Source: Methanoregula sp. (GTDB lineage Archaea; Halobacteriota; Methanomicrobia; Methanomicrobiales; Methanospirillaceae). Taken from it: a stretch of DNA of 45,236 nucleotides. A model generated the notes under the pieces. That model had not been told where the DNA came from. It did not search any database and saw only the letters and a list, made by a program, of their open reading frames with translations. The stretch lies in the NCBI GenBank assembly GCA_030651815.1, contig JAUSBW010000065.1, positions 1 through 45,236 of the forward strand, given 5' to 3'. A program made the position numbers and the translations under genes. Of the stretch, positions 6,116-45,135 are shown in pieces. Every line of letters begins with the position of its first letter. Position 1 is the first letter of the stretch.

Positions 6116-6214
6116 GACAAAAATCGTAGTTTTTTAACCCTTTACCCGGAATCATAAATATCATAAATCCAAAACAAACAATGAACAGAGATCAATCGGG
6201 AGAGAAATTTTTGA
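6116..6214 (+). repeat. 99-bp dispersed repeat, copy A
   Basis: This is the partner of the sequence at 28705-28804 in the opposite orientation. The 64 bases at 6151-6214 are identical to the reverse complement of 28705-28768, and the remaining 35 are similar with a few substitutions and a one-base indel. It lies in the convergent gap between the amidase gene and the DUF4013 gene. It is non-coding and AT-rich. Confidence 0.9.
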
Positions 6215-17390: not shown

Positions 17391-17670
17391 GAATTTTCTC
17401 ACAGGAAAGTTTTTTTTAAAACCGACATCAGGTGTAATAACTCATATCGTATTTTGTATTGAGTGCCTGCCATGTCCGGTATTCCGAAGTTGACAGAGGT
17501 TTTACCTTTGCTTCAATATCACATTTTATTTTTTTAGAAGTACTCAATCATACTCACATTGAAAAAATAGAGTAAAGTTTCTGAATAGTCTACCTGTTTT
17601 TTATAATAATTGTAAAAGATGATGACACGCTTAGTGGGAACTTTGTCACTCACCCAGATTCAGGATGCTT

Positions 17671-17702
17671 CCGCCGCCCCCGAAGGGACGCCCCCGCGGC
17701 GG
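17671..17702 (+). repeat. GC-rich 32-bp dispersed repeat, copy 1
   Basis: The sequence is bounded by CCGCCGC and GCGGCGG, a 7-bp terminal inverted repeat, with CCCCCGAAGGGACGCCCCC between. The exact reverse complement occurs at 36027-36058. Both copies sit in decayed non-coding sequence. A few bases outside one end (AGGATG) also match, so the unit may be about 40 bp. Confidence 0.85.
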
Positions 17703-28704: not shown

Positions 28705-28804
28705 TCAAAAATTTCTCTCCCGATTGATCTCTGTTCATTGTTTGTTTTGGATTTATGATATTTATGATCACAGGTAAAGGGTAAAAAAACCCACGATTTT
28801 AGTC
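28705..28804 (-). repeat. 100-bp dispersed repeat, copy B
   Basis: This is the inverted copy of 6116-6214, with 64 bases at the sbcD-proximal end identical. The far end includes GGGTAAAAAAACCC, a small hairpin with an A-run loop. It sits between sbcD and a DUF2080-type small gene, within a 729-base divergent gap. Confidence 0.9.
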
Positions 28805-29393: not shown

Positions 29394-32300
29394 ATGTCAG
29401 TGCGGTCCTCTCTGGATTTTTCAGATCTCGTTTTTTATGATCGTGGACTTCCGGGAGAAAAACTGAATTATTTTATCGACCAGTTCGTCGCTGCCGCAAC
29501 AGAAGATCCCTTCACGAGCTGGCTGCTCCTTCCTACAAAAAGACTTGTTGTCGATGTCACCGGCTACCTGACAGCACATAACATCCCCTTCATTGTATCC
29601 CGCATCTGCAACCTCGAAGGATTCTGCCAGATCCTCTTTGAAGACAGCCGGACAACAGAGCGGCTCTTATCAAAGGGCGAATCGAAACTCCTGCTGAACG
29701 ATATTCTTGAGAAGCATGCAGATGAGATTCCGTTATTCATTACCCGCGATCACCCGTCTCCGGGTACGATTGATGATCTCATGACCTTCATGAATGTCAC
29801 TCTCACAAGGAAGACGGCATTCCCTGAATGTCTATTAAGTCTCCAGAGCGAGAAGAGCGATCAGCTTGACACGATCATCACGGAATACCGGAACCGGCTG
29901 AGGAAACTGGAGCTTGTTGATGGCGATACGATTCTTGAATGGACGATCGATCACCTGGACCGCTGCGCATCATCCCCGCTCGGCACGGTATTCATCTATG
30001 GATTTCATGAGCCCCTGCCGCTCGAACAGGATCTCTTTGATACGATAAAAGCGCATGCAGGGAACGCGTACTTCTTTTTCCCTGACGGGCTCGATCCAAA
30101 TATATTCAGGAGCCGGACTGTGGAGGGGAAACAACCCGTATCTCAACCGGCACCTGATCCTTTGTCAATCCGGTCTGAGATCACCGGCCTGTTCCTGGAG
30201 ACCGGTACACTTAAAGCCGGTGATTTTTTCCGGGTGCAGACGTTTCCCTCGCGCTATGCCGAAGTATATGGCATCGCAGCGGAGATCGGCCGGCTGAACG
30301 CTGCCGGCACTCCCCTTGCCGATATCGCCGTGGTATTTCCGGATCTTCGCGGGGACTACGGGCTTATCGAAGAGGTGTTTAAGGAGTTTTTGATCCCGTG
30401 GAATGCGGCAGTCGGACCCAAACTCTCCCGGGCGCCGGTTATCCAGATCCTTGCCGGGATTGCCGGTCTCGTTTCCGGCGGGTATAACCGCGAGAATATC
30501 ATCCGGTTGATTGGCAGCCCCTATTTCCGGAAGGAAGCGGTACCGGGTGGGACTTCCCGACTGGATGCCGGTGAAGTCGATCTCGTTTCCCGGTATGCCC
30601 GGATTGACGGCTCTTATCCTTCATGGATCCCGCAGCTGGACTGGCTCCATAACGAGTTACAGGATCCGGAAAAAAGTAAGAACTACCCGGGCATCCCGGT
30701 TCATACCGTTGAACGCGTGCAGGAGGGAATGCGGATTCTTATCCGTGACCTCGATGCTCTTGCCGGCAAGAAAAGTCTCCGGGTGCATATCAGCGGGTTT
30801 TTGTCTTTCCTGAAATCATGGAACATCCCGCGCTTGTACACTGCGCCGGATGAACAGACTAACGAGCGGGAGATCAAGGCGTATAACAAATTCACCACCC
30901 GGCTTGAGGCTCTTGCCATGGCTGCGTGGATCCCAGAACATGAACCTGTCCCTTATAATGCATTTTTACGGTTTATCTCCGCCATTGCTGAAGAGCCGGA
31001 TCAGAGCGGCCGGCAGGATACCGGTGGGGTTGCCGTGCTCGGTCTCCGCGAATGCCCGCACCTGAAGTTCCCGTATGTCTTTATCGGGGGGCTGGTTGAG
31101 GGCACCTTTCCCCGGCTGACCACCCGCCTCCCCTTCACGAACTCCTTAGAGAATTCCCGCATGGGCACCCGTACGCTTTATAAGATTCTCCGGGAAGAAC
31201 AGTACTATTTCATTGCGGCCCTGCTCTCCGCGCAGAAGACGGTGTACCTGAGTGCCCCGCTTGCCGATGGGGAGAAACCACTGCTCACGTCCGCATTTTT
31301 CGAACGGGTCCGGATGAGAACCAAAGAAGCACCGTGGCCTGATGCAACCGGGATTATTCCCCCGGCATCCCGGCGCACTGCGGCTGTTTTGGCCGGTGCA
31401 GGCATCCGTGATGAGACGATTTGTGTTGCTCTCAGCCTGATCCCGGGCTCACTGGATATCAGCGATCTGGTGGAACGGATCAACATGGAGCGGTACTATC
31501 GGCGGGGCAACTGCGATTCGCCCTATGATGGCATTCTTTCCGATGAATCGATCCGTGAAGTGCTTGCTGAACGGTACGGGCCGGAGCATGTGTATTCCCC
31601 GACCAGCCTTGAGACCTATGCCAGCTGCCCGTTCGAATATTTCTTAAACCGGGTGATCAATCTTCAGGCGCTGCCGGAAGTAGAGCCGAACCTGTCAGCC
31701 GGTGATCGAGGGACAGCCATCCACGATATCCTGAGCACCTTTTACCGGAAGTGGCGTTCAGCCGGCCAGATGAAGGTCAGCCTTGCCTCTCTCAGTGATG
31801 CCACTGACCTGATCCTCCGTCTTGCCAACGAAGAACTGGACAAGTACTCATTCCAGAGTCCCCTCTGGGATGCAACCCGTATCCTGATGCTCGGGGACCG
31901 GCATACCGGTCCCGGGTACTTCGAACGGTTCTTACTCCATGAAACGGATGAATCTGCATCACCGCTCGTTCCTTCCCTGTTTGAATATTCCTTTGGCATG
32001 GGAACAACGGAATCGGATGATCCCGCATCATCTCCTTCGCCGGTTGAACTCACCTCACCGGATGGGGAACGGAAGGTATTCATCCGGGGCCGGATCGACC
32101 GGATCGATCTCACACCGGACGGATTCTTTTTAATTTATGATTACAAGTCCGGCTCGCAGCATCCCAGGGCAAAGGATATCGAAGCAGGTACTGCCCTGCA
32201 GCTGCCGCTTTACCTGCTTGCGTTTGAGAAGATCACCGGCAACCACGGTATCGGCGGGGGATACTACACGATCCGGCGCGAGGTGGACCGGAGCATTGTG

Positions 32301-32531
32301 CTCGCGGATTCCGCTGCAAAGGACCTGATGGTCTCCCGGCCCCGTGTCTCTAAAGATTTTGCCGGGATGATTCAGCACTCGCGGGACTGCGCTTTTGAGT
32401 ATATCGATGGCATCCGGAACGGTCGGTTCCCCCTTCCCTGCGAAGAGAAATGCCCGAACCTGTATTGCGAGTTCAAACGTATCTGCCGCTTCGATCCCTA
32501 CCGGGTCTTCGAAGTGCGGGAGGAGACCTGA
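29394..32531 (+). CDS. AddB/RecB-like PD-(D/E)XK exonuclease with Fe-S cysteines
   Basis: A 1045-residue protein. The N-terminal two thirds have a degenerate helicase architecture like AddB (FTSWLLLPTKRLVVDVTGYL, VFIYGFHEPLPLEQDLFDTI). Residues 740-1035 form a RecB-family nuclease: YASCPFEYFLNRV, GDRGTAIHDILSTFYRKW, IRGRIDRIDLTPDGF and LIYDYKSG (catalytic D-x-K), then LQLPLYLLAF. The Cys near 743 together with CEEKCPNLYCEFKRIC near 1016-1031 matches the four-Cys iron-sulphur staple of AddB-type nucleases. The stop is one base before the AddA-like start, so the pair is one operon. It should process double-strand ends with AddA; the role as an anti-invader nuclease is inference. Confidence 0.85.
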   Translation: MSVRSSLDFSDLVFYDRGLPGEKLNYFIDQFVAAATEDPFTSWLLLPTKRLVVDVTGYLTAHNIPFIVSRICNLEGFCQILFEDSRTTERLLSKGESKLLLNDILEKHADEIPLFITRDHPSPGTIDDLMTFMNVTLTRKTAFPECLLSLQSEKSDQLDTIITEYRNRLRKLELVDGDTILEWTIDHLDRCASSPLGTVFIYGFHEPLPLEQDLFDTIKAHAGNAYFFFPDGLDPNIFRSRTVEGKQPVSQPAPDPLSIRSEITGLFLETGTLKAGDFFRVQTFPSRYAEVYGIAAEIGRLNAAGTPLADIAVVFPDLRGDYGLIEEVFKEFLIPWNAAVGPKLSRAPVIQILAGIAGLVSGGYNRENIIRLIGSPYFRKEAVPGGTSRLDAGEVDLVSRYARIDGSYPSWIPQLDWLHNELQDPEKSKNYPGIPVHTVERVQEGMRILIRDLDALAGKKSLRVHISGFLSFLKSWNIPRLYTAPDEQTNEREIKAYNKFTTRLEALAMAAWIPEHEPVPYNAFLRFISAIAEEPDQSGRQDTGGVAVLGLRECPHLKFPYVFIGGLVEGTFPRLTTRLPFTNSLENSRMGTRTLYKILREEQYYFIAALLSAQKTVYLSAPLADGEKPLLTSAFFERVRMRTKEAPWPDATGIIPPASRRTAAVLAGAGIRDETICVALSLIPGSLDISDLVERINMERYYRRGNCDSPYDGILSDESIREVLAERYGPEHVYSPTSLETYASCPFEYFLNRVINLQALPEVEPNLSAGDRGTAIHDILSTFYRKWRSAGQMKVSLASLSDATDLILRLANEELDKYSFQSPLWDATRILMLGDRHTGPGYFERFLLHETDESASPLVPSLFEYSFGMGTTESDDPASSPSPVELTSPDGERKVFIRGRIDRIDLTPDGFFLIYDYKSGSQHPRAKDIEAGTALQLPLYLLAFEKITGNHGIGGGYYTIRREVDRSIVLADSAAKDLMVSRPRVSKDFAGMIQHSRDCAFEYIDGIRNGRFPLPCEEKCPNLYCEFKRICRFDPYRVFEVREET

Positions 32532-32532
32532 T

Positions 32533-35500
32533 ATGGCGGCTACCGGGCGGCAGGACGAAGCGATCACCACGCACGACCGGAGCATGGTGGTCACGGCCGG
32601 TGCAGGTACCGGAAAGACCTACGTGCTTGTCCGGAAATATATCGATCTCCTCAAAACACAGGGAGTTACGGTGCCGCAGATCCTTGCCCTGACCTTTACG
32701 GACAAGGCCGCTGCCGAAATGAAGGAGCGGATCCGGACCGGGATCCTCTTACAGGAAGGCCCGCAGTGGGAGAAGGCGGCCGAGGATTTCATGGTAGCCC
32801 CGGTCCAGACCTTCCATTCGTTCTGCGCCCAGGTACTCCGGGAGTTCCCGATCGAGGCGGGCCTGGAACCCGGCTTTGCCGTGCTGGACGAGCAGCAGGT
32901 CTCCCGCATCCACAGCACCGCATACGAGGAGCTGATCCATACCCGGCAGGATGAGCTGACGAACGAGGCGCTGGTCCATGTTCTCTCCATCACCGACCAG
33001 TACAGCTTAAAGACGATGCTCTCCGCACTCTACAGCAAGCGGGAGCAGTATGCCCGGTTCTTTGCTGCCCTTGGCGGGGATGAGAACCATATCCCTGATG
33101 TGTGGAAAACGGAAGTCGACGCATTCCGGGACGGGGAGATCACGGCACTGCGAAAGGATCCCTCGTTCTCATTGTGCGTTCGTACCCTGCTCGGATTCGC
33201 GTCTGCGTACGAGGGTGTCGATGACAAGGCGGCGATATTCCTTCAGGAGATTCGTCCCCTCCTTTTCCGGCTTGCTGAGCCTGCGGATGCCGGGAAGTTC
33301 TGTTCGGCTGCGCTTGAACTTGGCGAGAGGAAGCCAGGCAATATCGGGAGCAAGAAGATCTGGAAGGCCAATGATCTCGATGACTTTAAGAAAGCCCGGA
33401 AGGACTTAACCGGGATCCTTGAACGGAAACACTCCCTGTTCCGGATGACCGTTGATACCGCTGATCCGGTGATTACCGGGTCGGTCCGGTTCCTGCGGGA
33501 CCTTTCTGTTGTGTTCTCCCGGTATGCAGAACTGGCCGGTAACGGGAAGGCATCTGCCGGCGGTCTTGACTTCTCGGACCTGATCCTCCATGCCCGGCAG
33601 CTCTTCGTTGAGCAGCGGGATCTTGTGGCAACGCACTTCATGCCCCGGTTCCGGTACATCCTTGTCGACGAATTCCAGGACACGGACCTTGCCCAGTTCG
33701 ATATCATCCTCGCGATCATCGGGACCCCGTCCCCGAAAACGGACTGCCTCTTCATTGTCGGCGACCCCAAGCAGTCGATCTATCTCTTCCGCGATGCGGA
33801 CGTGACCCGGTTCAAGGAGGCGCAGGAGATCATCGCTGCGGCCTGCAAGGGACGGGTGGTGAACCTCGATACCAGTTTCCGGAGCACGAAGGAAGTGATC
33901 GGCCTTTCGAACTTCATCTTCTCCCGGCTGCTTGCGTCTGCGGAGAAGCCGTGGGAGTTCGGGTACGAGCCGGTCCGGATAGCTGAAAGCCGCGCAGCTC
34001 ATACCGGTTCGGTGGAACTGCTCCTCCCCCCCAAGGGTAGTGATGCTGCCGGGACGAAACGGAACGAGGCCGGGATGCTGGCCCGGCGGATCCACAGCAT
34101 CGTGAATGCGCAGCCGTTTTTTGTGTACTCGGAGGGGCCGGACCATTCGTTCGTTCAGCGCCCGGCCCGGTACGGCGATATCGCGATCCTGCTGGAGCAG
34201 CGGACCAACCTCTCGTATTACCTGTCGGCGCTGGGCGAGTACGGGATCCCGTTCTATGTCCACGGGGGGACCGGGTTCTACCACCGGCAGGAAGTGTACG
34301 ATCTCTGCAATATCCTCTCGTTCCTCGAACACCGTCACGACAATATCAGCCTTGCCGGTATCCTGCGGTCCCCGTACTTCGGCGTTCCGGATACGGAACT
34401 TTTCTGCATTGCGCAGGAGAACGGCCGGATGCTCTGGGACAAGCTGGTTGCGTACGCGGAGCGGACCGGTCCCGGTCCGGCAACCCGTGCCCGCGAGCTG
34501 CTCTCATCATGGCAGCAGTACGCCGGCCGGTCCGGGCTGGTCTCGTTACTCCGCCGGATCCTATCGGAGTCCGGAGTTTACACCGTGTATGCCGCGCTCC
34601 CGGCCGGGGAACAAATCCTTGCCAACATCGAGAAGCTGGTCGGCATGGCCCGGAACCGCGAGGAGGCCGGAAATTATACACTAGCCGATTTCACCGCCGA
34701 TCTCCGGCAGGCGATGGACGAGGACGAGCGGGAAGGCGAGGCGCCGCTCGATGCCCTTTCTGAGAATGCTGTCAACATCATGACCGTGCATGCGGCAAAG
34801 GGCCTGGAGTTCCCCCTCGTGTTCGTGCCGGACATGGGCATGCCGTTCCGCGAACGGTATCCCCCCATCATGATCGGCGACAACCCGCTGATGGTGGGAG
34901 TCAGGGTCCCCAATCCCGCTGACAATTTTGAGATGACGGAGAGTGCCGTCATGGTGATGCTGCGGGAGTTGCAGCGCCAGAAGGAGCGGGCCGAGCGGAA
35001 GCGTTTGTTGTATGTGGCGTTGACCCGGGCCCGGGATCATTTGTTCATGAGCGGGAGTGCGCCGGAGGATTCTCTTTTATCTTTTGATCTTGGCCGGTCC
35101 CGGATTGAGTGGTTATTTAGTGCACTTGGGGTGACGGGGGATGCGATTGCTGCCGGGGGATTGGTGTTGCTTTCTGACGGTCTCCGTCTTTCGATTGTTT
35201 CGGATCCCTTGGCGATTCCTGCTGAGACGGGGCGGGTCTCATCTGCGCTGCTTGTTGTGCCTGAGGAATGTGCGGGGAAGGCGGGGACCTGGACCGGGCC
35301 GGTGTATTCTGCCGGACCGGAGCGGGTGAAGGTTGTTTCTGTTTCGGAGATGGAGAAGGGACTGGTTCATGTCCGGGAGCCGGTGGTTTCGAAGTATTTA
35401 CCGGGTGTCGATGGCACGAAGAAGGGTACGATTATTCATGAGGTGCTGCGGGGCCGGGATACGTCGACTGTATTGAAAGAATATGGGGAATATTCGGAGG

Positions 35501-35835
35501 AGCATGTCCGGCAGTGTGAGGAAATTCGATCTGCGTTTCTCTCTTCGGACCTGATGAAGCGGGTGAAGCGGTCTTACTGTGAGGTGCCGTTTGTTGTTAC
35601 AGTTGAAGGAAAGCGGGTGATTGGGAAAATTGACCGGTTGTGTGAACTTGAGGATGGAACGTGGGTTGTGATTGATTACAAATCGGAAGCGTCAGCTGAT
35701 TATACTGTTTTAGTGGAAGAGTATGCTCTTTCAGTTTCGGTTTATGTTGCGGCGGCCCGGCATCTTATCGGAGGAAATAATGTGCAGGGATTGTTGTATT
35801 TCACGGAGACGGGGAATTTGGAAAAGGTACATTAA
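32533..35835 (+). CDS. AddA-like UvrD-family helicase-nuclease
   Basis: The frame is open from 32395, but ATG 32533 directly after the AddB-like stop is the sensible start; 1100 residues. SF1 motifs are all present: TAGAGTGKTYVLV (I), ALTFTDKAAAEMKERI (Ia), FHSFCAQVLREF, YILVDEFQDTDLAQFDII (II), VGDPKQSIYLFR (III), TSFRSTKEVI (IV), NIMTVHAAKGLEFPLVF (V) and RKRLLYVALTRARDHLF (VI, about 822-838). The C-terminal RecB-like nuclease has GTIIHEVLRGRD, GKIDRLCELEDG and WVVIDYKSE. Codon use changes sharply near motif VI, from C-ending upstream to T/G-ending downstream. The same 3' third is repeated twice downstream (from 36588 and from 39843). Confidence 0.9.
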   Translation: MAATGRQDEAITTHDRSMVVTAGAGTGKTYVLVRKYIDLLKTQGVTVPQILALTFTDKAAAEMKERIRTGILLQEGPQWEKAAEDFMVAPVQTFHSFCAQVLREFPIEAGLEPGFAVLDEQQVSRIHSTAYEELIHTRQDELTNEALVHVLSITDQYSLKTMLSALYSKREQYARFFAALGGDENHIPDVWKTEVDAFRDGEITALRKDPSFSLCVRTLLGFASAYEGVDDKAAIFLQEIRPLLFRLAEPADAGKFCSAALELGERKPGNIGSKKIWKANDLDDFKKARKDLTGILERKHSLFRMTVDTADPVITGSVRFLRDLSVVFSRYAELAGNGKASAGGLDFSDLILHARQLFVEQRDLVATHFMPRFRYILVDEFQDTDLAQFDIILAIIGTPSPKTDCLFIVGDPKQSIYLFRDADVTRFKEAQEIIAAACKGRVVNLDTSFRSTKEVIGLSNFIFSRLLASAEKPWEFGYEPVRIAESRAAHTGSVELLLPPKGSDAAGTKRNEAGMLARRIHSIVNAQPFFVYSEGPDHSFVQRPARYGDIAILLEQRTNLSYYLSALGEYGIPFYVHGGTGFYHRQEVYDLCNILSFLEHRHDNISLAGILRSPYFGVPDTELFCIAQENGRMLWDKLVAYAERTGPGPATRARELLSSWQQYAGRSGLVSLLRRILSESGVYTVYAALPAGEQILANIEKLVGMARNREEAGNYTLADFTADLRQAMDEDEREGEAPLDALSENAVNIMTVHAAKGLEFPLVFVPDMGMPFRERYPPIMIGDNPLMVGVRVPNPADNFEMTESAVMVMLRELQRQKERAERKRLLYVALTRARDHLFMSGSAPEDSLLSFDLGRSRIEWLFSALGVTGDAIAAGGLVLLSDGLRLSIVSDPLAIPAETGRVSSALLVVPEECAGKAGTWTGPVYSAGPERVKVVSVSEMEKGLVHVREPVVSKYLPGVDGTKKGTIIHEVLRGRDTSTVLKEYGEYSEEHVRQCEEIRSAFLSSDLMKRVKRSYCEVPFVVTVEGKRVIGKIDRLCELEDGTWVVIDYKSEASADYTVLVEEYALSVSVYVAAARHLIGGNNVQGLLYFTETGNLEKVH

Positions 35836-36026
35836 TACTGAACTGAAAAATTTGCTGTAATTATTTCAGAGAATGTTTTGAAAAAGAATATTGATCTTTA
35901 TTTGCCTCTTCAGCGTTTTAAGTGGGTAAGATATGTTACTAAAAATTTGTTTGTGAAGTTCCCCCGTATTAGGGTCTCTCCAAGGCACGGCGGGGCAAGG
36001 TGGTGTCAACAGATTAGTCACTAAAA

Positions 36027-36058
36027 CCGCCGCGGGGGCGTCCCTTCGGGGGCGGCGG
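36027..36058 (-). repeat. GC-rich 32-bp dispersed repeat, copy 2
   Basis: This is the exact reverse complement of 17671-17702. It lies in the 500-base gap between the AddA-like gene and the cassette array. Apart from it and the relic at 36160-36221 this gap (35836-36335) holds no convincing gene. An open frame around 35870-36020 without a good start encodes a basic stretch and is left uncalled. Confidence 0.85.
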
Positions 36059-36159
36059 CGTTCATCCTAATAGGGGGTATGGGGGCGAGCTCCCAATCAG
36101 CATGATGCATATGCAATAAATTTACCCACTCATTTCGCTGAAGAGCCATCTATTTTTCC

Positions 36160-36221
36160 GACCGGGTTTTTCTGAGTTCTGTCGGGTCAGTGAGGGTTGT
36201 GGCGAGGCCTTGACGCCGGAG
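36160..36221 (+). pseudogene. relic of an earlier cassette junction
   Basis: GTCGGGTCAGTGAGGGTTGT at 36181-36200, followed by GGCGAGGC and a damaged TTGACGCCGGAGA, matches the joint between the ATPase 3' flank and the addA fragment in unit 2 (39821-39865). Nothing of either gene remains, so it is probably the collapsed end of a unit that preceded the two recognisable ones. Confidence 0.6.
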
Positions 36222-36335
36222 ATGGGGATGAGGGGGCTGTCTGGTTTTTTGGGGTGTGCGGGGATATGAGAGGAGGGGAGGGAGAAAATGATGGGGAGTT
36301 TACGGTTCACCAGAAACCGCGACGCATTAAAAATC

Positions 36336-36365
36336 CTAATCGTGATTAGTACTAATCATGATTAG
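36336..36365. promoter_or_regulatory. double 14-bp palindrome, unit 1
   Basis: CTAATCGTGATTAG (36336-36349) and the perfect palindrome CTAATCATGATTAG (36352-36365) are separated by TA. The element is identical to that at 38323-38352. The ATG of the ATPase relic is inside the second palindrome. Confidence 0.85.
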
Positions 36366-36447
36366 GAATTCATCGACCGCGAGGAAGAGCGTTCCTCGGG
36401 ACGATGGCTATCTTGTTTTTGACAGCGCTGATCTGGAAGAGTGCTGA
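36358..36447 (+). pseudogene. internally deleted DUF234 ATPase (unit 1)
   Basis: The first dozen codons and the last dozen codons of the ATPase at 38345-39709 are joined by a deletion of about 1.27 kb. The start region differs by a one-base loss, which puts the N-terminal residues out of frame (MIRNSSTARKSVP). The frame then returns to the parental one for RDDGYLVFDSADLEE before a stop. The flanks and palindromes are kept. The product, if made, is a 29-residue peptide without ATPase motifs. Confidence 0.8.
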
Positions 36448-36587
36448 CGGAATAAGAAGAGGTCGCCCGCGTGGATGGGGGGCCCGGGTTTTTCCCTGTA
36501 TGCTGTTTTCTATCGCCCTGACGAAATTATCGGTCGGCTGCTTTTCGTTTTGGGTTGTTTGTGCTCGGTCGGATTGGGGAGGGTGGT

Positions 36588-36899
36588 GGCGAGGCTTTGA
36601 TGCCCTTTGCGGAGAATGCTGTCAACATCATGACGGTCCATGCGGCCAAGGGTCTGGAGTTTCCCATCGTGTTCGTGTCGGACATGGTCATGCCGTTTAA
36701 GGATCGCCCCAGCCCCATCATGATTGGGGACAACCCGCTGATGGTAGGCGTGAAGGTCCCCAACCCCGCTGATAATTTCGCAATGACCGAAAGTGCCGTG
36801 CTGGTGATGCTGCGGGAGTTGCAGCGCCAGAAGGAGCGGGCCGAGAGGAAGCGTTTGCTGTATGTGGCGCTGACCCGGGCCCGGGATCACCTTTCATGA
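36588..36899 (+). pseudogene. addA 3' fragment, unit 1, helicase motif V-VI part
   Basis: This copies the AddA-like gene from 34735 onward: ENAVNIMTVHAAKGLEFPIV, VGVKVPNPADNF and RKRLLYVALTRARDHL are clear. A single-base deletion around 36887-36893, compared with the parent and with unit 2, shifts the frame right after DHL and stops it at 36899. The fragment begins in the middle of the helicase, lacks motifs I-IV, and cannot be an active motor. The frame continues from 36896. Confidence 0.8.
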
Positions 36900-37720
36900 G
36901 CGGGACTGCGCCGGAGGATGCTGGTTTATCTTTCGATCTTGGCCGGTCCCGGATTGAGTGGTTGTTTACTGCGCTTGGGGTGACGGGGGATGCGATTGCT
37001 GCCGGGGGACTGGTGTTGCCTTCTGGCGGTCTCCGTCTTTCGATTGTTTCTGATCCTTTGGCGATTCCTGCTGAGACGGGGCGGGTCTCGCCTTCATTGC
37101 TTGTTGTGCCTGAGGAATGTGTGGGGAATGTTGGGACGTGGAGTGGTCCTCAGTACTCTCCCGGGCCGGACCGGGTGAAGGTTGTTTCTGTTTCGGAGCT
37201 GGAGAAGGGGCCGGTTCACGCCCGGGATCCGGTGGTTTCGAAATATTTACCGGGCGTTGAAGGGACGAAGAAGGGGACGATCATTCATGAGGTGTTGCGG
37301 GGCCGGGATGCTTCGACAGTTCTGAAAGAATATGGGGAATATTCGGAGGAGCATGTCCGGCAGTGTGAGGAGATCGTGGCCCGGTTCTGGTCTTCGGATC
37401 TGATGAAAACGGTGAAGCGTTCGTATTGTGAACTGCCGTTTGTTGTAACTGTTTCCGGTGTGCGGGTTACCGGTTCTATCGATCGGTTGTGCGAGCTCCC
37501 GGATGGTTCGTGGGTGGTAATCGATTACAAATCAGATCCGGTTTCTTCGGCGGAGTATTCTTTGAAGGCGGAGGAGTACGCTCTTTCTTTATCGGTGTAC
37601 TGCGAAGCGGCCCGGCAGTTGATTGGGGCGGGGGTTGCCGGGTGGCTGTATTTTACGGAGACGGGGGAGTTTTTTAAAGGGCTGACGATTAATTGGTGCA
37701 AAAAAAGGAAGGCATACTAA
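36896..37720 (+). CDS. stand-alone RecB-like nuclease domain, addA 3' duplicate (unit 1)
   Basis: A 274-residue frame covers the region after motif VI plus the full nuclease domain of the AddA-like protein, at roughly 75-80 per cent identity by eye. The nuclease motifs are kept: GTIIHEVLRGRD, GSIDRLCELPDGSW, VVIDYKSD and YALSLSVYCEAARQL. It follows the frameshifted helicase fragment with a 4-base overlap (ATGA at 36896-36899). It may be expressed as a separate nuclease module, act as a recombination donor for the parent, or simply be a recent pseudogene. The end (FFKGLTINWCKKRKAY) differs from the parent. Confidence 0.55.
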   Translation: MSGTAPEDAGLSFDLGRSRIEWLFTALGVTGDAIAAGGLVLPSGGLRLSIVSDPLAIPAETGRVSPSLLVVPEECVGNVGTWSGPQYSPGPDRVKVVSVSELEKGPVHARDPVVSKYLPGVEGTKKGTIIHEVLRGRDASTVLKEYGEYSEEHVRQCEEIVARFWSSDLMKTVKRSYCELPFVVTVSGVRVTGSIDRLCELPDGSWVVIDYKSDPVSSAEYSLKAEEYALSLSVYCEAARQLIGAGVAGWLYFTETGEFFKGLTINWCKKRKAY

Positions 37721-37728
37721 GATTGCAT

Positions 37729-37826
37729 GATAGCAGAAATTGTGTACTAATATAGTGAAGATAGCAAAGATAACAAAGATAGCAGCAATTGTGTAAGTAG
37801 ATAATGAAGATAGCAAAGATAACGTA
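37729..37826. repeat. two tandem copies of a 49-bp AT-rich repeat
   Basis: GATAGCAGAAATTGTGTA at 37729 recurs as GATAGCAGCAATTGTGTA at 37778. Each is followed by an ...ATGAAGATAGCAAAGATAAC-type tail, giving a 49-base period, and GATAGCAAAGATAAC also repeats within it. It marks the end of unit 1. The rest of the 624-base gap up to 38344 is GC-rich, with no gene that I can support. Its last 300 bases are homologous to the sequence left of the unit 1 palindrome (GGGGAGTTT-CGGTTCAC at 36295 and 38029). Confidence 0.75.
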
Positions 37827-38322
37827 ACTATTCGGGGCAAGCCCTCAAACGGATCCAGCCAAACGGGGCGCCAACACCGGCCCTTGTTGCATGGGCGAAG
37901 GCAGAGCCTGTGGTCTGGGGAAGCGGAGGCTGTGGCCGGAAAATATTAAACATGCCCTGCCTGAAATTTTCCCATCGCGATTCGGATCGCGATTGAAATT
38001 ATTTTTTTGGGAGGTGAAGGGAGATGAGGGGGAGTTTCCGGTTCACTCATGATACAACTCTCCCAATAATCAGTCAAAGGAATACACCCGACAATTTTTG
38101 AAACTTTAAGAGCGTTTTTAGTAAGAGCCGCTGGCTCCATGCAGCGTTGACCGGGACGCAATCGTGTCGTAGCTCGTGGCACCGGAACTGCCGCTTAACG
38201 TTGAGCGGGAAAATCCGGGTGAGGAACCGGCCACCCCTGTGTCTTTTAAAGGACCGGTGATTTGAGAAGGATCAGGTTTTTTAGGATTCCGGAACACCCG
38301 AACCAGCGACACATTAATAATC

Positions 38323-38352
38323 CTAATCGTGATTAGTACTAATCATGATTAG
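38323..38352. promoter_or_regulatory. double 14-bp palindrome overlapping the ATPase start
   Basis: CTAATCGTGATTAG (38323-38336), TA, then CTAATCATGATTAG (38339-38352). The start codon at 38345-38347 is the central ATG of the second, perfect palindrome. A protein bound here would block both promoter clearance and translation start, so autoregulation is plausible. Binding as a transposition or recombination site is the alternative, since the element is also present in unit 1. Confidence 0.85.
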
Positions 38353-39709
38353 AGAGTTCATCGACCGCGAGGAAGAGCGTGCCCTGCTTGAGCGTGAATG
38401 GCAGGATTCCGGGGGCCGGCTCATCATCCTCTACGGCAGGCGGCGGATCGGAAAGACCCGGCTCATCGATGAATTCATCCGGGACAAGCCCGGCATACTC
38501 TATATCGCAGAGGACGCATCCCCGCATATCCAGATCGCGCAGCTCAAGGCCCGGTGCGCGGAGTATTTTGGCGATCCCCTCCTCGCTGAGCTGGATATCA
38601 GGACATGGGATCAGCTCTTTACCTATCTCGCACAAAAACCGCCCGGTAAGAGAACATACCTTGTAATTGACGAGTTTACGTACCTGATAAGAAACGACCC
38701 CTCTGTTCTTTCTGCGCTCCAGAAAGCCTGGGACCGTAGTATCACCGGCTCTGACTGGTGCCTTCTTCTCTCCGGCTCGATACTCTCGCTCATGAGCGAT
38801 CTTGCCCTCTCGTCCACATCCCCGCTCTATGGCCGGAGAACGCGTGACCTGCTGTTAGGGCCGTTAAGGTTTTCCGATGCGAGGAAGTTTTTCCATCTCC
38901 CGTTTCCTGAGGCCCTGAAAGTGTACCTGTCTATCGGTGGGGTTCCGGAGTATCTTCTCAAGGCTGGCGCGTATGAGGATTGCGACTCGTTTTACACAAC
39001 CGAGTTTTTCAACCGGTACGGGTACTTTTACCACGAACCGTACTTTATCCTCTCGCAGGAGTTCCGGGAGCTTAAAATTTACCAGTCCATCCTCCACGCG
39101 ATTGCGCTTGGCAATACCGCACCGACTGCGATTGCGCAGTTCTGCGGTCTCGACACCCGCCACGTGTACCCGTACCTCGAATCCATGATCCGGCTGGGGC
39201 TTGTGGAAAAAGAGGTGCCGCTCCTGGGTCATTCCCGCCAGGCGATATACCGCATCCGGGACCGGGTCTTTGATTTCTGGTACTGCTATGTGTTCCCGCG
39301 CCGGCAGGAGATCGAGACCGGGCATCCCGGTTCCGTTCTTCCGGATATCAACCCGTTCTTTGGCAGGCAGTTCGAGGCGTTCGTGCGAAACGAGTATGCC
39401 GCAATTGTCATGCCGGGATACCGTACCGGCCACTGGTGGTATAAGGAGGACGAGATCGATCTCGTGGCGACGGACGATACTTCATCCACCGTTATCTTTG
39501 GCGAATGCAAATGGGGGGATGTCAGTCTCCAGCAGGCTAAAAAACTCCTCGCCCTCTTAAAAACAAAGTCAAAGCTCGTGCGTGCCGACAAGTACCGCCA
39601 CTGGAAGTACGCGCTCTTCTCTGCCGGGACAATTGAAGGGAAGCTCCGGTTGCGGGACGATGGCTATCTTGTTTTTGACAGCGCTGATCTGGAAGAGTCC
39701 GGACGGTAA
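38345..39709 (+). CDS. archaeal ATPase with DUF234 nuclease-like domain
   Basis: A 454-residue member of the archaeal AAA-type (STAND-related) ATPase family. The N-terminus is IREFIDREEERALLEREW, with Walker A YGRRRIGKTRLIDEF (about 29-43), Walker B TYLVIDEFTYLIRN, and sensor-like LLSGSILSLMSDL. A winged-helix region follows (about 245-300, TAIAQFCGLDTRHVYPYLES). The C-terminal DUF234 domain contains EDEIDLVATDD and VIFGECKWGDVS, a PD-(D/E)XK-like D...E-x-K arrangement. Such genes occur in many copies in archaeal genomes, and their function is not established. The GC-rich codon use matches the older parts of the region. An almost completely deleted sister lies in unit 1. Confidence 0.88.
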   Translation: MIREFIDREEERALLEREWQDSGGRLIILYGRRRIGKTRLIDEFIRDKPGILYIAEDASPHIQIAQLKARCAEYFGDPLLAELDIRTWDQLFTYLAQKPPGKRTYLVIDEFTYLIRNDPSVLSALQKAWDRSITGSDWCLLLSGSILSLMSDLALSSTSPLYGRRTRDLLLGPLRFSDARKFFHLPFPEALKVYLSIGGVPEYLLKAGAYEDCDSFYTTEFFNRYGYFYHEPYFILSQEFRELKIYQSILHAIALGNTAPTAIAQFCGLDTRHVYPYLESMIRLGLVEKEVPLLGHSRQAIYRIRDRVFDFWYCYVFPRRQEIETGHPGSVLPDINPFFGRQFEAFVRNEYAAIVMPGYRTGHWWYKEDEIDLVATDDTSSTVIFGECKWGDVSLQQAKKLLALLKTKSKLVRADKYRHWKYALFSAGTIEGKLRLRDDGYLVFDSADLEESGR

Positions 39710-39815
39710 AAAAGAGGTCGCCCGCGTGGATGGGGGGGCCGGGTTTTTCCCTGTATGCTGTTTTCTATCGCCCTGACGAAATTATCGGGCGGCTGCTTCT
39801 CGTTTCGGCTTTTTT

Positions 39816-40358
39816 GTGCTCGGTCGGGTCAGTGAGGGTTGTGGCGAGGCTTTGATGCCCTTACCGGAGAATGCCGTCAACATCATGACGGTCCATGCGG
39901 CCAAGGGCCTGGAGTTTCCCATTGTGTTCGTGCCGGACATGGGCTCCGGCTTCCGGGACCGCCCCGGCCCCATCATGATTGGCAACAACCCGTTCCTCGT
40001 TGGCGTGAAGGTCCCCAACCCCGCTGATAATTATGAGATGACCGAGAGTGCGGTGCTGGTGATGTTGCGGGAGTTGCAGCGCCAGAAGGAGCGGGCCGAG
40101 AAGAAGCGGCTGCTGTATGTGGCCCTGACCCGGGCCCGGGATCATTTGTTCATGAGCGGGACTGCACCGGAGGATTCTCTGTTATCTTTTGATCTTGGCC
40201 GGTCCCGGATTGAGTGGGTGTTTACTGCTTTATCGGTGACGGGGGATGCGATTGCTGCGGGGGGACTGGTGTTGCCTTCCGGACTGCGCCTTTCGATTGT
40301 TTCGGATCCTTTGGCGATTCCTGCTGAGACGGGGCGGGTTTCATTCGATGAGTGCTGA
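39816..40358 (+). pseudogene. addA 3' fragment, unit 2, truncated
   Basis: The frame of 180 codons matches the AddA-like protein from GEAL (39843) through motif V (ENAVNIMTVHAAKGLEFPIV) and motif VI (KKRLLYVALTRARDHLF). It ends abruptly after AIPAETGRVS, with three foreign residues and a stop. The nuclease domain is missing. It shares several changes with unit 1 against the parent (GVKVPNPADN, MSGTAPED, GGLVLPSG), so the two units come from a common cassette ancestor. The cut point is where the AT-rich island begins. Confidence 0.8.
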
Positions 40359-40508: not shown

Positions 40509-41708
40509 ATGAGTAAATCACCTTCTAAACATTCAGCAGGACCATCATTAACTGGATACTTGTATCAATGTCGCCTTGCGCTTTTCTTGGCTTTAAAAAA
40601 TTTGAAAATTAATCCAAATCTTACAATATCTTTTGAAAATCTGGATGACGTGGTTTTTGAAAAAAATGGATTGCCAAAAGAAATCATTCAAACGAAGCAT
40701 CATACAAAACGGAAAGGGAATCTTTCAGATGCTAGCACTGACTTATGGAAGACACTTCATATTTGGATGGATCTTTTCCAATCTGAAATTCCACAATCGG
40801 AATTTGCATTCTATATGATGACAACATCTTTAGCGAATAAAGGATGTGCAGCATTTTACCTCAGAGTGGAAAAACGCAACCTTCATGAAGCGGAGAAAAA
40901 ACTTATTCAGGTAGCAAAAACATCAGATAATAAAATTAACAAAGAAGCATATTCTGCTTTCCTTTCAATGACGGAATCTCAACGCTTAACTTTTCTCAAT
41001 TTAGTTTTTATTATTGATAATTGTCCGTTAATCGATGAACTGGATAAACACCTACAAGGAGAAATATTAAGGGCATGCCATCGATCCAGAGTGGATCAAT
41101 TTCTCTTATATCTTGAGGGTTGGTGGTATTCCCGAATCTTAAAGAGTTTAACGACAGATCGAGCCAAGATTATCTTAGGTATCGAATTGGATTTACGTAT
41201 TGATGAATTACGTGAAGATTTCAAAAATGATGCCCTGCCGATTCACGATGATCTAAGAACTCTGAACGTAGATCAGGAATTGTACCAAGATTACATTTTC
41301 GTTCATCAATTGAGAATGATAGATGTGACTTCTCGGCGCATTGCAATTGCAGTTAATAACTATTATAGGGCTTACGAACAGCGTTCGCGATGGTTACGCG
41401 AAGATTTGCTTCTTCTTGGGGATATTGATGTTTATGAAGATCGATTAAAAGAAGAGTGGACAACTCAATTTGAAACAATGCGGGAAAATATCGGAGAAGA
41501 AGCAACTGAAAAAGAAAAAGTGAATGCAGCACGGGCAATTTATAATTGGGTCGAAAAGGAAGCTGACATCCCCCTTCGCAAATGCCAAGAGCCCTTTATA
41601 ACACGAGGTTCATATCACATTTTAGCTGACAAAGGGAAGGTAGGTTGGCATTTGGATTTTGAATCCCGAATTGCGAACCTTTTGGAACTCAAGGGAATGG
41701 CAAAATGA
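40509..41708 (+). CDS. ABC-3C system effector/CTD component with PD-(D/E)XK-like N-terminus
   Basis: A 399-residue protein. The first 130 residues read GPSLTGYLYQCRLALFLAL, then ISFENLDDVVFEKNG and EIIQTKHHTKR. This is the E...DD...E-x-x-QxKH layout of the DUF4297/Cap4-like restriction nuclease fold. The remaining 270 residues are helical, end in a conserved-looking RGSYHILADKGKVGWHLDFE, and fit the CTD component of ABC-three-component systems, which couple an effector to an SMC-like ATPase. It is AT-rich and overlaps the next gene by four bases. The nuclease reading is from motif layout only, and the target (DNA or RNA) is unknown. Confidence 0.7.
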   Translation: MSKSPSKHSAGPSLTGYLYQCRLALFLALKNLKINPNLTISFENLDDVVFEKNGLPKEIIQTKHHTKRKGNLSDASTDLWKTLHIWMDLFQSEIPQSEFAFYMMTTSLANKGCAAFYLRVEKRNLHEAEKKLIQVAKTSDNKINKEAYSAFLSMTESQRLTFLNLVFIIDNCPLIDELDKHLQGEILRACHRSRVDQFLLYLEGWWYSRILKSLTTDRAKIILGIELDLRIDELREDFKNDALPIHDDLRTLNVDQELYQDYIFVHQLRMIDVTSRRIAIAVNNYYRAYEQRSRWLREDLLLLGDIDVYEDRLKEEWTTQFETMRENIGEEATEKEKVNAARAIYNWVEKEADIPLRKCQEPFITRGSYHILADKGKVGWHLDFESRIANLLELKGMAK

Positions 41709-42211
41709 GATCTTGGGACAGACGCAGTATTGAAGAAGCGAATCTTCTTAACCCAGCATTTCTATCGGTTATAACCCACCAATGTGTGAGGGGGTATGTA
41801 GATGGGACCGGTTCGAACGCTCCGTATGTTCTTCCATTCCTAGTTGCGCCATTAATTTTGCATAAAAACACCCGAGACAATTTACCCTCTACGATTGCAA
41901 CAAAGTTTCCGACTTGGATTTCCCAACTAACTGGGACTCAAGCAAAAGCAGGATATGCACAAAGGGCAAGTTCGATTGTACCTTTTATGAAAGAAGCAAT
42001 GATTATTTCGATCTCGAATAAAATAATCATCCCTACAGAAAATAATTATTTCTTAACATACAATCCAAAAATTAACATACCGTCAATTGTAAAAGATCCG
42101 TTTACCCATGAAGTTATAGATTGTTTCAAAAAATCTCATTTTTGTGGTCGATGGTTCGCCCGAGCAGGATCGATTGAGACCATAATGGCATTACTAGGAG
42201 TAAAACCATGA
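41705..42211 (+). CDS. ABC-3C system middle component
   Basis: A 168-residue protein whose start overlaps the upstream stop (ATGA) and whose stop overlaps the DUF3732 ATPase start (ATGA). Features are RRSIEEANLLNPAFLSVITH at the N-terminus, APYVLPFLVAPLILHKNTRD, GYAQRASSIVPFMKEAMI and, at the end, CGRWFARAGSIETIMALLGV. This N-P-AF... F-L-x-P-L-x-L ... G-x-W-F ... T-I-x-x-L-L-G-V pattern is that of the three-component ABC system middle component family. It is thought to bridge effector and ATPase. It has no catalytic motif of its own. Confidence 0.8.
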   Translation: MRSWDRRSIEEANLLNPAFLSVITHQCVRGYVDGTGSNAPYVLPFLVAPLILHKNTRDNLPSTIATKFPTWISQLTGTQAKAGYAQRASSIVPFMKEAMIISISNKIIIPTENNYFLTYNPKINIPSIVKDPFTHEVIDCFKKSHFCGRWFARAGSIETIMALLGVKP

Positions 42212-44148
42212 GTTTCCAGATAAAAGAAATCGTTCTCTACAATCTCTTTGGGGAAAAAAGAATTGTCTATTTTGATATTAACGCAGTAAATATTATCACA
42301 GGTGCGTCAGGAACCGGGAAATCTTCAATAATTCATATTGTAAGGTATTGTCTTGGGGAATCTAACAATATTCCAATTAGAAAAGAAATATTAGAGAAAA
42401 TTTCATGGTTTGGAATCCGACTTGTACGCGATCAAGAAGAACTTTTTATCGCTCGTTTAAACCCAAGATCCGGAAAATTATCATCAGAAGAGATTTATTT
42501 CGAAAAAAGACATAATCTCGTTTTACCCCCACTCGAACAATTATCTCAAAATATTAATTTAGATGGGTTAGTGACTTTACTCACAAAATTTTCTGGTATC
42601 GATGATTATGAGTTTGAACCTAAGGAGGGTCAAACGAGAAATCCTGGAATTGCTCATATTGGGAAAGCAATAATTTATTGTTTCCAGAAGCAAGGTGAAG
42701 TTGGCAATCAGGATTTTTTATTCCATCGCCAAGGTGAACCATTCCTCCCTCAAAGTATCAAAGACTATATGCCATTTTTTATGGGTGCTGTCGACAAAAA
42801 TTATGTTTTGAAAAAATCGGAATTAAATCAACTAAAAAACAAGTTACGTCGTCTGCAAATTCTGGTAGATGATAGAAACTTGATTAAAGGGGATGTATTT
42901 AACCGAGCCCATACACTAATTGCTGAAGCAGTTTCATTTGGTCTTCTCCCTAACGATCAAACAATGCCTCAATCATGGGCCGAAATAAAAAGTGTATTAA
43001 TTTCCGCGATCGAGGAAAACCCAGAGCAAATTTTGCCTGAAATTGAATTTGAAAAAAAAATAAATCAGTTGTTTGAAAAAAGGAAAGAGTTACACAATAT
43101 ATCGCTAAAAATTTCTGATGAAATTGAAGCTTTAGAGGCATTAAAAAAAGGAGGGGTTGGTTTTGCTCAGGAAGCTAACGAACAACGTGCCCGGCTCAGT
43201 AGCATTGGACTTCTGCCAGTAAATAGAGGATTAGAACAAAAAATATGTCCTTTTTGTGAATCCGAACTGACAAAACCGGCTCCTGGAGCGAATGATATCC
43301 AAACAAATTTACTACAAATATCAAAACAACTCACCGGAGTTAAAACGGATCTTCCGCATATCAAAAAATTGATCGCTGATGCTAATGATAGGCTAACAAT
43401 AGTTCTAAAAGAAATTCGGAATCTTAATTCTCAAATGCAGGCGATTCAACGTGTGAATCAAAAAATTGAGGATATTCAAAATATAAATGAAAAATGTGCT
43501 TTAATTAAAGGACGTCTAGGATTATATCTTGAAACAATTGTTGACGTTGCGGATGTCGAAACGGAAAATGATGAAATAGCTGAATTAAAAAGACGTATCG
43601 AGACTCTTGAAAATGATATTGATTTGGACGAAACACAGGATCGTCTTCAATCAATTCTTCTATACATTTCTCAAGAGATGACAGAAATGGCAACAAGACT
43701 TCAACTAGAATACTCCCCTCATCCAATCCGAATAGATCCCAAAAAATTGACCGTCGTTGCTGATACGGAAGATGGAGAAGTGACGATGAAAAAAATGGGA
43801 AGTGAGCACACTTGGATGTCTCTTCACGTTATAACGCACCTAGCTCTCCATCGATGGTTTGCAAAAAAGAGACTACCGGTTCCACACTTTATCTTTTTTG
43901 ATCAGCCCAGCCAGGCATATTTTCCTCCTGAAATGTCAGATAACTCCAGAAGAAATTCAGATATGATATCCGTAAATCAATTATTTCATCTTATAATTGA
44001 TAAAGTGAAAGATGCTGGATTTCAAGTGATTATTTTAGAACATGTTGATATTCAACAAGATTGGTATCAGAAAATGATAAGGGAAAAATGGTGGGATGAA
44101 GAAAAAAAGCTAGTTCCTGTTTCATGGATTCATTCAGAACTAAAATAA
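42208..44148 (+). CDS. DUF3732 SMC-like ATPase of an ABC-3C system
   Basis: A 646-residue SMC/Rad50-like ATPase. Walker A is NIITGASGTGKSSIIHIVRY near residue 30. A central coiled coil is split by a CxxC zinc hook (KICPFCESELTKP, about residue 347). The C-terminal half has SEHTWMSLHVITHLALHRWF in place of the usual ABC signature, and the Walker B equivalent HFIFFDQPSQAYFP, a Gln-Pro-Ser-Gln form typical of DUF3732, followed by VIILEHVDI. Together with its two coupled partners it forms a predicted conflict (anti-virus) system. The AT-rich codon use differs strongly from the region to the left. Confidence 0.85.
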   Translation: MSFQIKEIVLYNLFGEKRIVYFDINAVNIITGASGTGKSSIIHIVRYCLGESNNIPIRKEILEKISWFGIRLVRDQEELFIARLNPRSGKLSSEEIYFEKRHNLVLPPLEQLSQNINLDGLVTLLTKFSGIDDYEFEPKEGQTRNPGIAHIGKAIIYCFQKQGEVGNQDFLFHRQGEPFLPQSIKDYMPFFMGAVDKNYVLKKSELNQLKNKLRRLQILVDDRNLIKGDVFNRAHTLIAEAVSFGLLPNDQTMPQSWAEIKSVLISAIEENPEQILPEIEFEKKINQLFEKRKELHNISLKISDEIEALEALKKGGVGFAQEANEQRARLSSIGLLPVNRGLEQKICPFCESELTKPAPGANDIQTNLLQISKQLTGVKTDLPHIKKLIADANDRLTIVLKEIRNLNSQMQAIQRVNQKIEDIQNINEKCALIKGRLGLYLETIVDVADVETENDEIAELKRRIETLENDIDLDETQDRLQSILLYISQEMTEMATRLQLEYSPHPIRIDPKKLTVVADTEDGEVTMKKMGSEHTWMSLHVITHLALHRWFAKKRLPVPHFIFFDQPSQAYFPPEMSDNSRRNSDMISVNQLFHLIIDKVKDAGFQVIILEHVDIQQDWYQKMIREKWWDEEKKLVPVSWIHSELK

Positions 44149-44736: not shown

Positions 44737-45135
44737 TTAAACTTGGAATCCTAAAATTCCGTATTTCTGCTCTCTTTTTTTGAATGCCTCTTGTCCCCCT
44801 TCTAACAAAGGCATAATTTCTTGTCGAATTTCGGGACTTTCAAGCGCACCGGATTTATATGTAATTTTCCCATCATTAAATTCTGCAATAATTATTTGTT
44901 CTGCGTCTGTATTAACAACTAAATTTGCATTATTTGATGCAATTAAGACTTGTCGATTATTTTTCGCGTTCCTCATTGCCCCGACTAGCTCGTTATAAAT
45001 AAATTTATTATCCAGATTTTCTTCAGGTTGATCTAGTATAATGGGATAGTCTCCTTCTGCAAGGAATAGTTTTAAGAGAACAGTACCTTTTTGACGGTTC
45101 TGTCGAAAAATCCAGTGATTACACCATTTTTTCAT
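44737..45135 (-). pseudogene. C-terminal remnant of a TrlF-like AAA ATPase
   Basis: A frame of 132 codons contains the end of an ATPase: YPIILDQPEENLDNKFIYNE (Walker B region), NRQVLIASNNANLVVNTDAE, then GALESPEIRQEIMPLLEGGQ and AFKKREQKYG. This matches the C-terminus of TrlF-family PHP-AAA ATPases and related SMC-like defence proteins, which are normally about 900 residues. The Walker A part and any PHP domain are absent, and the bases to the right are non-coding A-runs. It looks 5'-truncated, the start MKKWCNHWIF probably being accidental. The 193-base gap 44544-44736 to its left holds no gene. Confidence 0.65.

Follow-up and report, generated by a model that had tools for sequence, protein, structure and literature searches.

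An addB-addA operon and the array behind it

The stretch of DNA analysed, 45,236 nucleotides of a Methanoregula sp. assembly (hereafter the window), carries an operon in which a UvrD-type helicase-nuclease, AddA, is encoded together with a nuclease, AddB. Domain matches in Pfam and NCBIfam bore out the intact operon that the original prediction had placed ahead of the array; because the NCBIfam scores do not reach the curated equivalog cut-offs, the genes are called AddAB-like. The start of addA was set at the conserved ATG (32533); the listed open reading frame opens at 32395. The features of the operon and of the region behind it are as follows.

29394..32531, + strand: addB, intact (Pfam PDDEXK_1, E=2e-38; NCBIfam AddB models; orthologues in AddAB genomes)
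32533..35835, + strand: addA, the intact parent (Pfam UvrD helicase, and PDDEXK_1 at aa 1057-1136; NCBIfam addA)
36160..36290, - strand: mre11 5'-end relic 1 with leader (aligned to the intact mre11 starts of genomes G024, G027 and G029; in the relic family)
36336..36367, unstranded: double palindrome before the ATPase remnant (same sequence before DUF234 ATPase genes of other genomes)
36354..36455, + strand: DUF234 ATPase remnant, the first ~40 bp joined to the last ~60 bp (same internal deletion in contigs C217 and C513 of genome G011)
36456..36604, - strand: mre11 5'-end relic 2, a "joint" (tblastn with Mre11 and nucleotide alignment; relic family, 100/100)
36599..37678, + strand: addA 3' fragment A, codons ~782 to the end, one frameshift at ~36893 (in the G005/G007/G011 clade)
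37690..37823, + strand: natural 3' flank of G011/G005-type addA, with short direct repeats (matches the intact-addA flank in G011, locus L015, and G005, L033)
38321..38352, unstranded: double palindrome overlapping the ATPase start codon (sequence repeat)
38345..39709, + strand: intact ATPase (Pfam ATPase_2 and DUF234; PADLOC candidate PDC-S27; 96% identical protein in G011)
39712..39859, - strand: mre11 5'-end relic 3, a "joint" (tblastn with Mre11, nucleotide alignment, relic family)
39854..40344, + strand: addA 3' fragment B, stopping at codon ~949, without the nuclease domain (BLAST, Pfam, tree)
40509..44148, + strand: Lamassu/ABC-3C antiphage genes (LmuA 40509-41708, LmuC 41705-42211, LmuB 42208-44148)

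BLAST of the window against itself confirmed that the 3' end of addA recurs twice downstream, with 82.6% identity between 34750-35814 and 36599-37666 (fragment A, E=0) and 86.1% between 34750-35242 and 39854-40344 (fragment B). The two downstream units are alike from the 3' end of the ATPase on (36397-37089 and 39653-40342, 89.4%), as are the double palindrome and ATPase start before them (36300-36395 and 38287-38383, 88.7%). The same ATPase flank and palindrome do precede each copy, as had been proposed, but the ATPase is whole only before fragment B and a remnant before fragment A. The predicted shorter relic of the joint was also found (36165-36217, 86.8% identical to 39807-39859). Contig C220 of this genome terminates in a third addA fragment, which has the same joint (C220:5975-6540), and many contigs end inside these repeats, for which chance is excluded as a source.

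The double palindrome (CTAATCGTGATTAGTACTAATCATGATTAG) precedes DUF234 ATPase genes in several genomes (loci L026, L028, L029, L032 and L036), one of which belongs to another family of the order. The ATPase start codon, an ATG, lies inside the second palindrome, suggesting that an operator covers it.

Mre11 relics and foreign addA ends

Tblastn with Mre11 and nucleotide alignment identified the joint as the decayed 5' end of an archaeal mre11 gene, lying in antisense orientation. It aligns antisense to the first ~60 mre11 codons, including the HAGDLFDTV motif, and to the upstream leader. A search of related genomes with the unit revealed the joint without addA in several related species, and intact archaeal mre11 adjoins some of these addA-free joints. 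Twelve relics from five species form a single clade apart from all intact mre11 (support 100/100), which indicates repeated copying of a single, already degraded mre11 start. Members of this family lie directly after addA in G005, beside intact mre11 in G029 and G034, and after a uracil-permease gene in G034 and in contig C16 of G005; the latter two contexts show that the family has also reached places other than simple scars of displacement, which counts against displacement as the whole explanation.

GATGCC marks the point where relic and addA join in the window copies and in C220; in contig C217 of G011 that point is GGCGAGGC, ~15 bp from the GATGCC joint. Both joints fall inside a short similarity between the relic and addA (GGCGAGGC...GATGCC), which suggests short-homology recombination, perhaps on more than one occasion.

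Other mre11 5' fragments (from aa 1 to aa 53-118) lie beside varied genes in G026, G022, G061, G004 and G009 (L118, L120, L121, L122 and L137). Those that were tested fall outside the relic family, and none derives from the 3' part of mre11. Their ends scatter widely (aa ~53-118), which rules out a fixed point of site-specific integration in mre11.

The ancestry of the addA fragments was assessed in trees, most of them built on less than 500 bp, with one genome per species in the comparison set. In the 3'-region tree, the parent is the outgroup to the fragments and the intact addA of G005, G007 and G011 (98/97). Groupings of the parent with fragment A (AU p=0.028), fragment B (p=0.0045), the C220 copy (p=0.006) or all three copies (p=0.010) were rejected, as was a group of A and B alone (p=0.045); the groupings were chosen after the first tree had been seen, so these p values serve as guides. 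The 50-100 bp following fragment A match the natural addA flank of G011 and G005 and not that of the parent. The tree and the AU tests rule out an origin of the fragments by duplication of the addA in the window. Judged from these comparisons, the addA fragments are foreign, descended from the addA of related species. They differ from other addA genes mostly at third codon positions, which suggests that most of their divergence accumulated elsewhere, while they were still functional genes.

Two points of the original prediction are modified by these results. The copies do share changes absent from the parent, but these are largely the changes found in the intact addA of related species. That the cassette was made once holds for the junction common to A, B and C220 but not for its addA part, in which A and B are not sisters.

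One locus for two end-processing operons

Depending on the species of the genus, a single chromosomal locus carries either herA-nurA-rad50-mre11 or addB-addA. The left flank genes (clusters 6, 7, 8, 13, 3 and 9) and the right flank genes (an RNase_T exonuclease and a PDDEXK protein) are common to the addAB loci of G033 and G060 and the mre11-rad50 loci of G062 and G020. Ends of the alternative operon persist beside addAB: a relic of the rad50 3' end (aa ~697-816; 787-816 in G033) lies to the left of addB in G060, G030, G012 and G033, and the mre11 5' relic to the right of addA in the window genome and in G005. The two ends were seen together in no single genome; no rad50 relic was found to the left of addB in the window genome, where SbcCD is located, and, which counts against displacement, no genome shows an intermediate state in which both operons lie intact side by side.

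Among the 23 genomes that are at least 90% complete, eight have AddAB only, ten Mre11/Rad50 only, one both and four neither (Fisher p=0.009 for the alternation, uncorrected for relatedness). Parts of both systems are present in G009, G017 and G006. In other parts of the order AddA and Mre11 are found together, which makes the alternation a trait of this genus. Rarity of AddAB in the order was ruled out (65 of 120 genomes have it). The reverse arrangement is found in G024, where two addA 3' fragments lie directly upstream of intact mre11-rad50 (L132:12439-13510) and no full addA was found; this genome suggests that displacement also ran the opposite way.

The locus is part of a defence hotspot. 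Different antiphage systems lie between the same core genes, and several of the genomes concerned have flanks in common. In genomes other than that of the window, mre11 is accompanied by either of two distinct Gabija sets, by a HEPN-MNT pair or by a helicase; in the window genome, Lamassu adjoins the array. The two Gabija systems occupy the same spot beside mre11 in opposite orientation (G020/G034 and G062, plus GajB in G027; L123-L126 and L134). Near the window end (44737-45135), a C-terminal piece resembles the Ppl defence protein (PADLOC E=3e-20).

Origin of the array

In our view the array probably consists of scars, left at a hypervariable defence hotspot when operons displaced one another repeatedly and short homologies recombined. 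The repeats are mostly broken mre11 and foreign addA ends at an alternating locus, which argues for recombination scars rather than a working store. In the proposed course of events, AddAB would have taken the place of the rad50-mre11 interior, leaving the rad50 3' end on the left and the mre11 5' end on the right. The right-hand stretch, comprising an addA 3' end, an mre11 relic, the DUF234 ATPase and a further mre11 relic, may then have been repeated head to tail by recombination at the short similarity between relic and addA, after which pieces of the array would have been exchanged with related species. Tandem repetition followed by exchange is our reading of the joints and the trees; the ATPase-relic joint is identical in both units, so these are not independent displacements. 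The left border of the hotspot would thus be an end-processing operon that is itself displaced, with exchangeable antiphage genes on its right, and the fragments would be without function. The intact ATPase is probably a defence gene in its own right, carried as cargo of the hotspot.

Two other accounts bear on how the composite came together. The original prediction had raised the possibility of a mobile unit that captured addA sequence. Such a unit would be a DUF234 ATPase that moves between genomes with its flanks as a cassette and has acquired ends of both mre11 and addA; the captured piece includes the mre11 relic, which had not been recognised as such. The foreign origin of addA and the presence in G011 of the same composite (ATPase remnant, mre11 relic and addA 3' end) agree with it, as do the near identity of the ATPase and relic in G011 (95.6% at the DNA level) and the occurrence of this ATPase start ahead of intact mre11 in G035. 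The ATPase deletion common to G000 and G011 is what a non-autonomous derivative would look like, and the dispersal of the relic family over several contexts suggests that the relic travels with modules, which leaves this account some weight. We nevertheless regard it as unlikely: the open reading frames of the array, namely the ATPase (Pfam ATPase_2 and DUF234) and pieces of addA, include no recognisable transposase or integrase gene; no constant ends were found, the boundaries of the relic and its partners on the left and right differing from copy to copy; and the copies seen in context lie mostly at or near the same hotspot, so that exchange by homologous recombination explains them. An assembly artefact, in which pieces of related strains were joined in a metagenome-type assembly, would fit a genome in 285 contigs with 3.1% contamination, copies that differ at the species level and a contig, C220, that ends inside a copy. 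It is very improbable, given that the same ATPase-relic-addA joint occurs in an independent assembly (C217 of G011) and that relics and rad50 ends recur in independent genomes, some of them on single long contigs.

Even less probable, in our judgement scarcely credible, is the proposed store of silent cassettes, in which alternative AddA nuclease ends would be recombined into addA, for example to escape phage inhibitors of the nuclease. It is true that much of the reading frame is preserved in the copies, that their divergence from the parent is of species level, and that addA 3' ends are more variable than the rest of the gene. However, the 5' and 3' parts of intact addA give one and the same branching order, with the parent outside G011 and G005/G007, and thus no sign that the parent acquired a cassette 3' end; no intact addA was found to be a mosaic with cassette sequence, and the fragments are not sister to the parent. 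Moreover, fragment B ends before the nuclease domain (Pfam), fragment A reaches the gene end but is frameshifted, and the few private changes of fragment B and the C220 copy are scattered over codon positions as in decaying sequence. In the portion inspected, none of the nine other AddAB genomes of the genus, G060 among them, has such a fragment next to addA. The idea that copies and parent exchange sequence was rejected because the 5' and 3' trees show no incongruence, and the congruent trees, together with the missing nuclease domain of fragment B, leave the silent-cassette proposal without support. In the part tested, the fragments are decaying and no exchange with the parent is detected, the pattern that had been named beforehand as telling against cassettes. 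In G007, a contig ends in addA at codon ~948 (L042:8155), near the end point of fragment B, a possible sign of repeats in that genome too.

In silent-cassette gene conversion, as in pilS and vlsE, partial gene copies lie beside an intact gene. The array resembles these systems in that partial copies adjoin the intact gene, but no exchange is detected and the copies are foreign and decayed. A parallel to the scars proposed here is xenologous displacement, reportedly described by Omelchenko et al. in 2003, in which an operon is replaced in situ by a functionally equivalent one. There too a system is swapped at one chromosomal place and gene ends are left behind; what differs here is that the machines are unlike (HerA-NurA-Rad50-Mre11 and AddAB) and that the displaced ends are multiplied in an array.

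The core defence hotspots of Pseudomonas aeruginosa likewise hold variable antiphage systems between fixed core genes, with transfer via homologous flanks suggested (PMC10250203); here, in contrast, one border is an exchangeable repair operon, and partial gene ends persist as scars. The herA-nurA-rad50-mre11 operon is an archaeal operon (PMC12977600, PMC7690668), and it is the allele at this locus in the Mre11 genomes of the genus. Mre11-Rad50 has been described as universally conserved in archaea (PMC7690668), whereas it is absent here from several near-complete genomes carrying AddAB. In this genus, Mre11-Rad50 and AddAB seem to be interchangeable alleles, alternating at a single locus within a defence hotspot, which makes phage pressure testable as a driver of the turnover of end-processing nucleases. 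The main interest of the array lies in this alternation of two end-resection systems, of whose turnover it is a readable record rather than a new kind of system. A more speculative possibility, to which we attach a small probability, is that the rad50 3' and mre11 5' ends act as homology arms by which the two end-processing systems swap back and forth, the ~150-bp mre11 relic being a linker that reshuffles defence modules between genomes.

Two further repeats were observed in the window. A GC-rich REP-like repeat occurs at 36027-36104 and 17626-17702 and has about 20 matches genome-wide, several of them at contig ends. An inverted repeat of ~100 bp (6116-6214 and 28705-28804, 93% identical) has just a short third match elsewhere.
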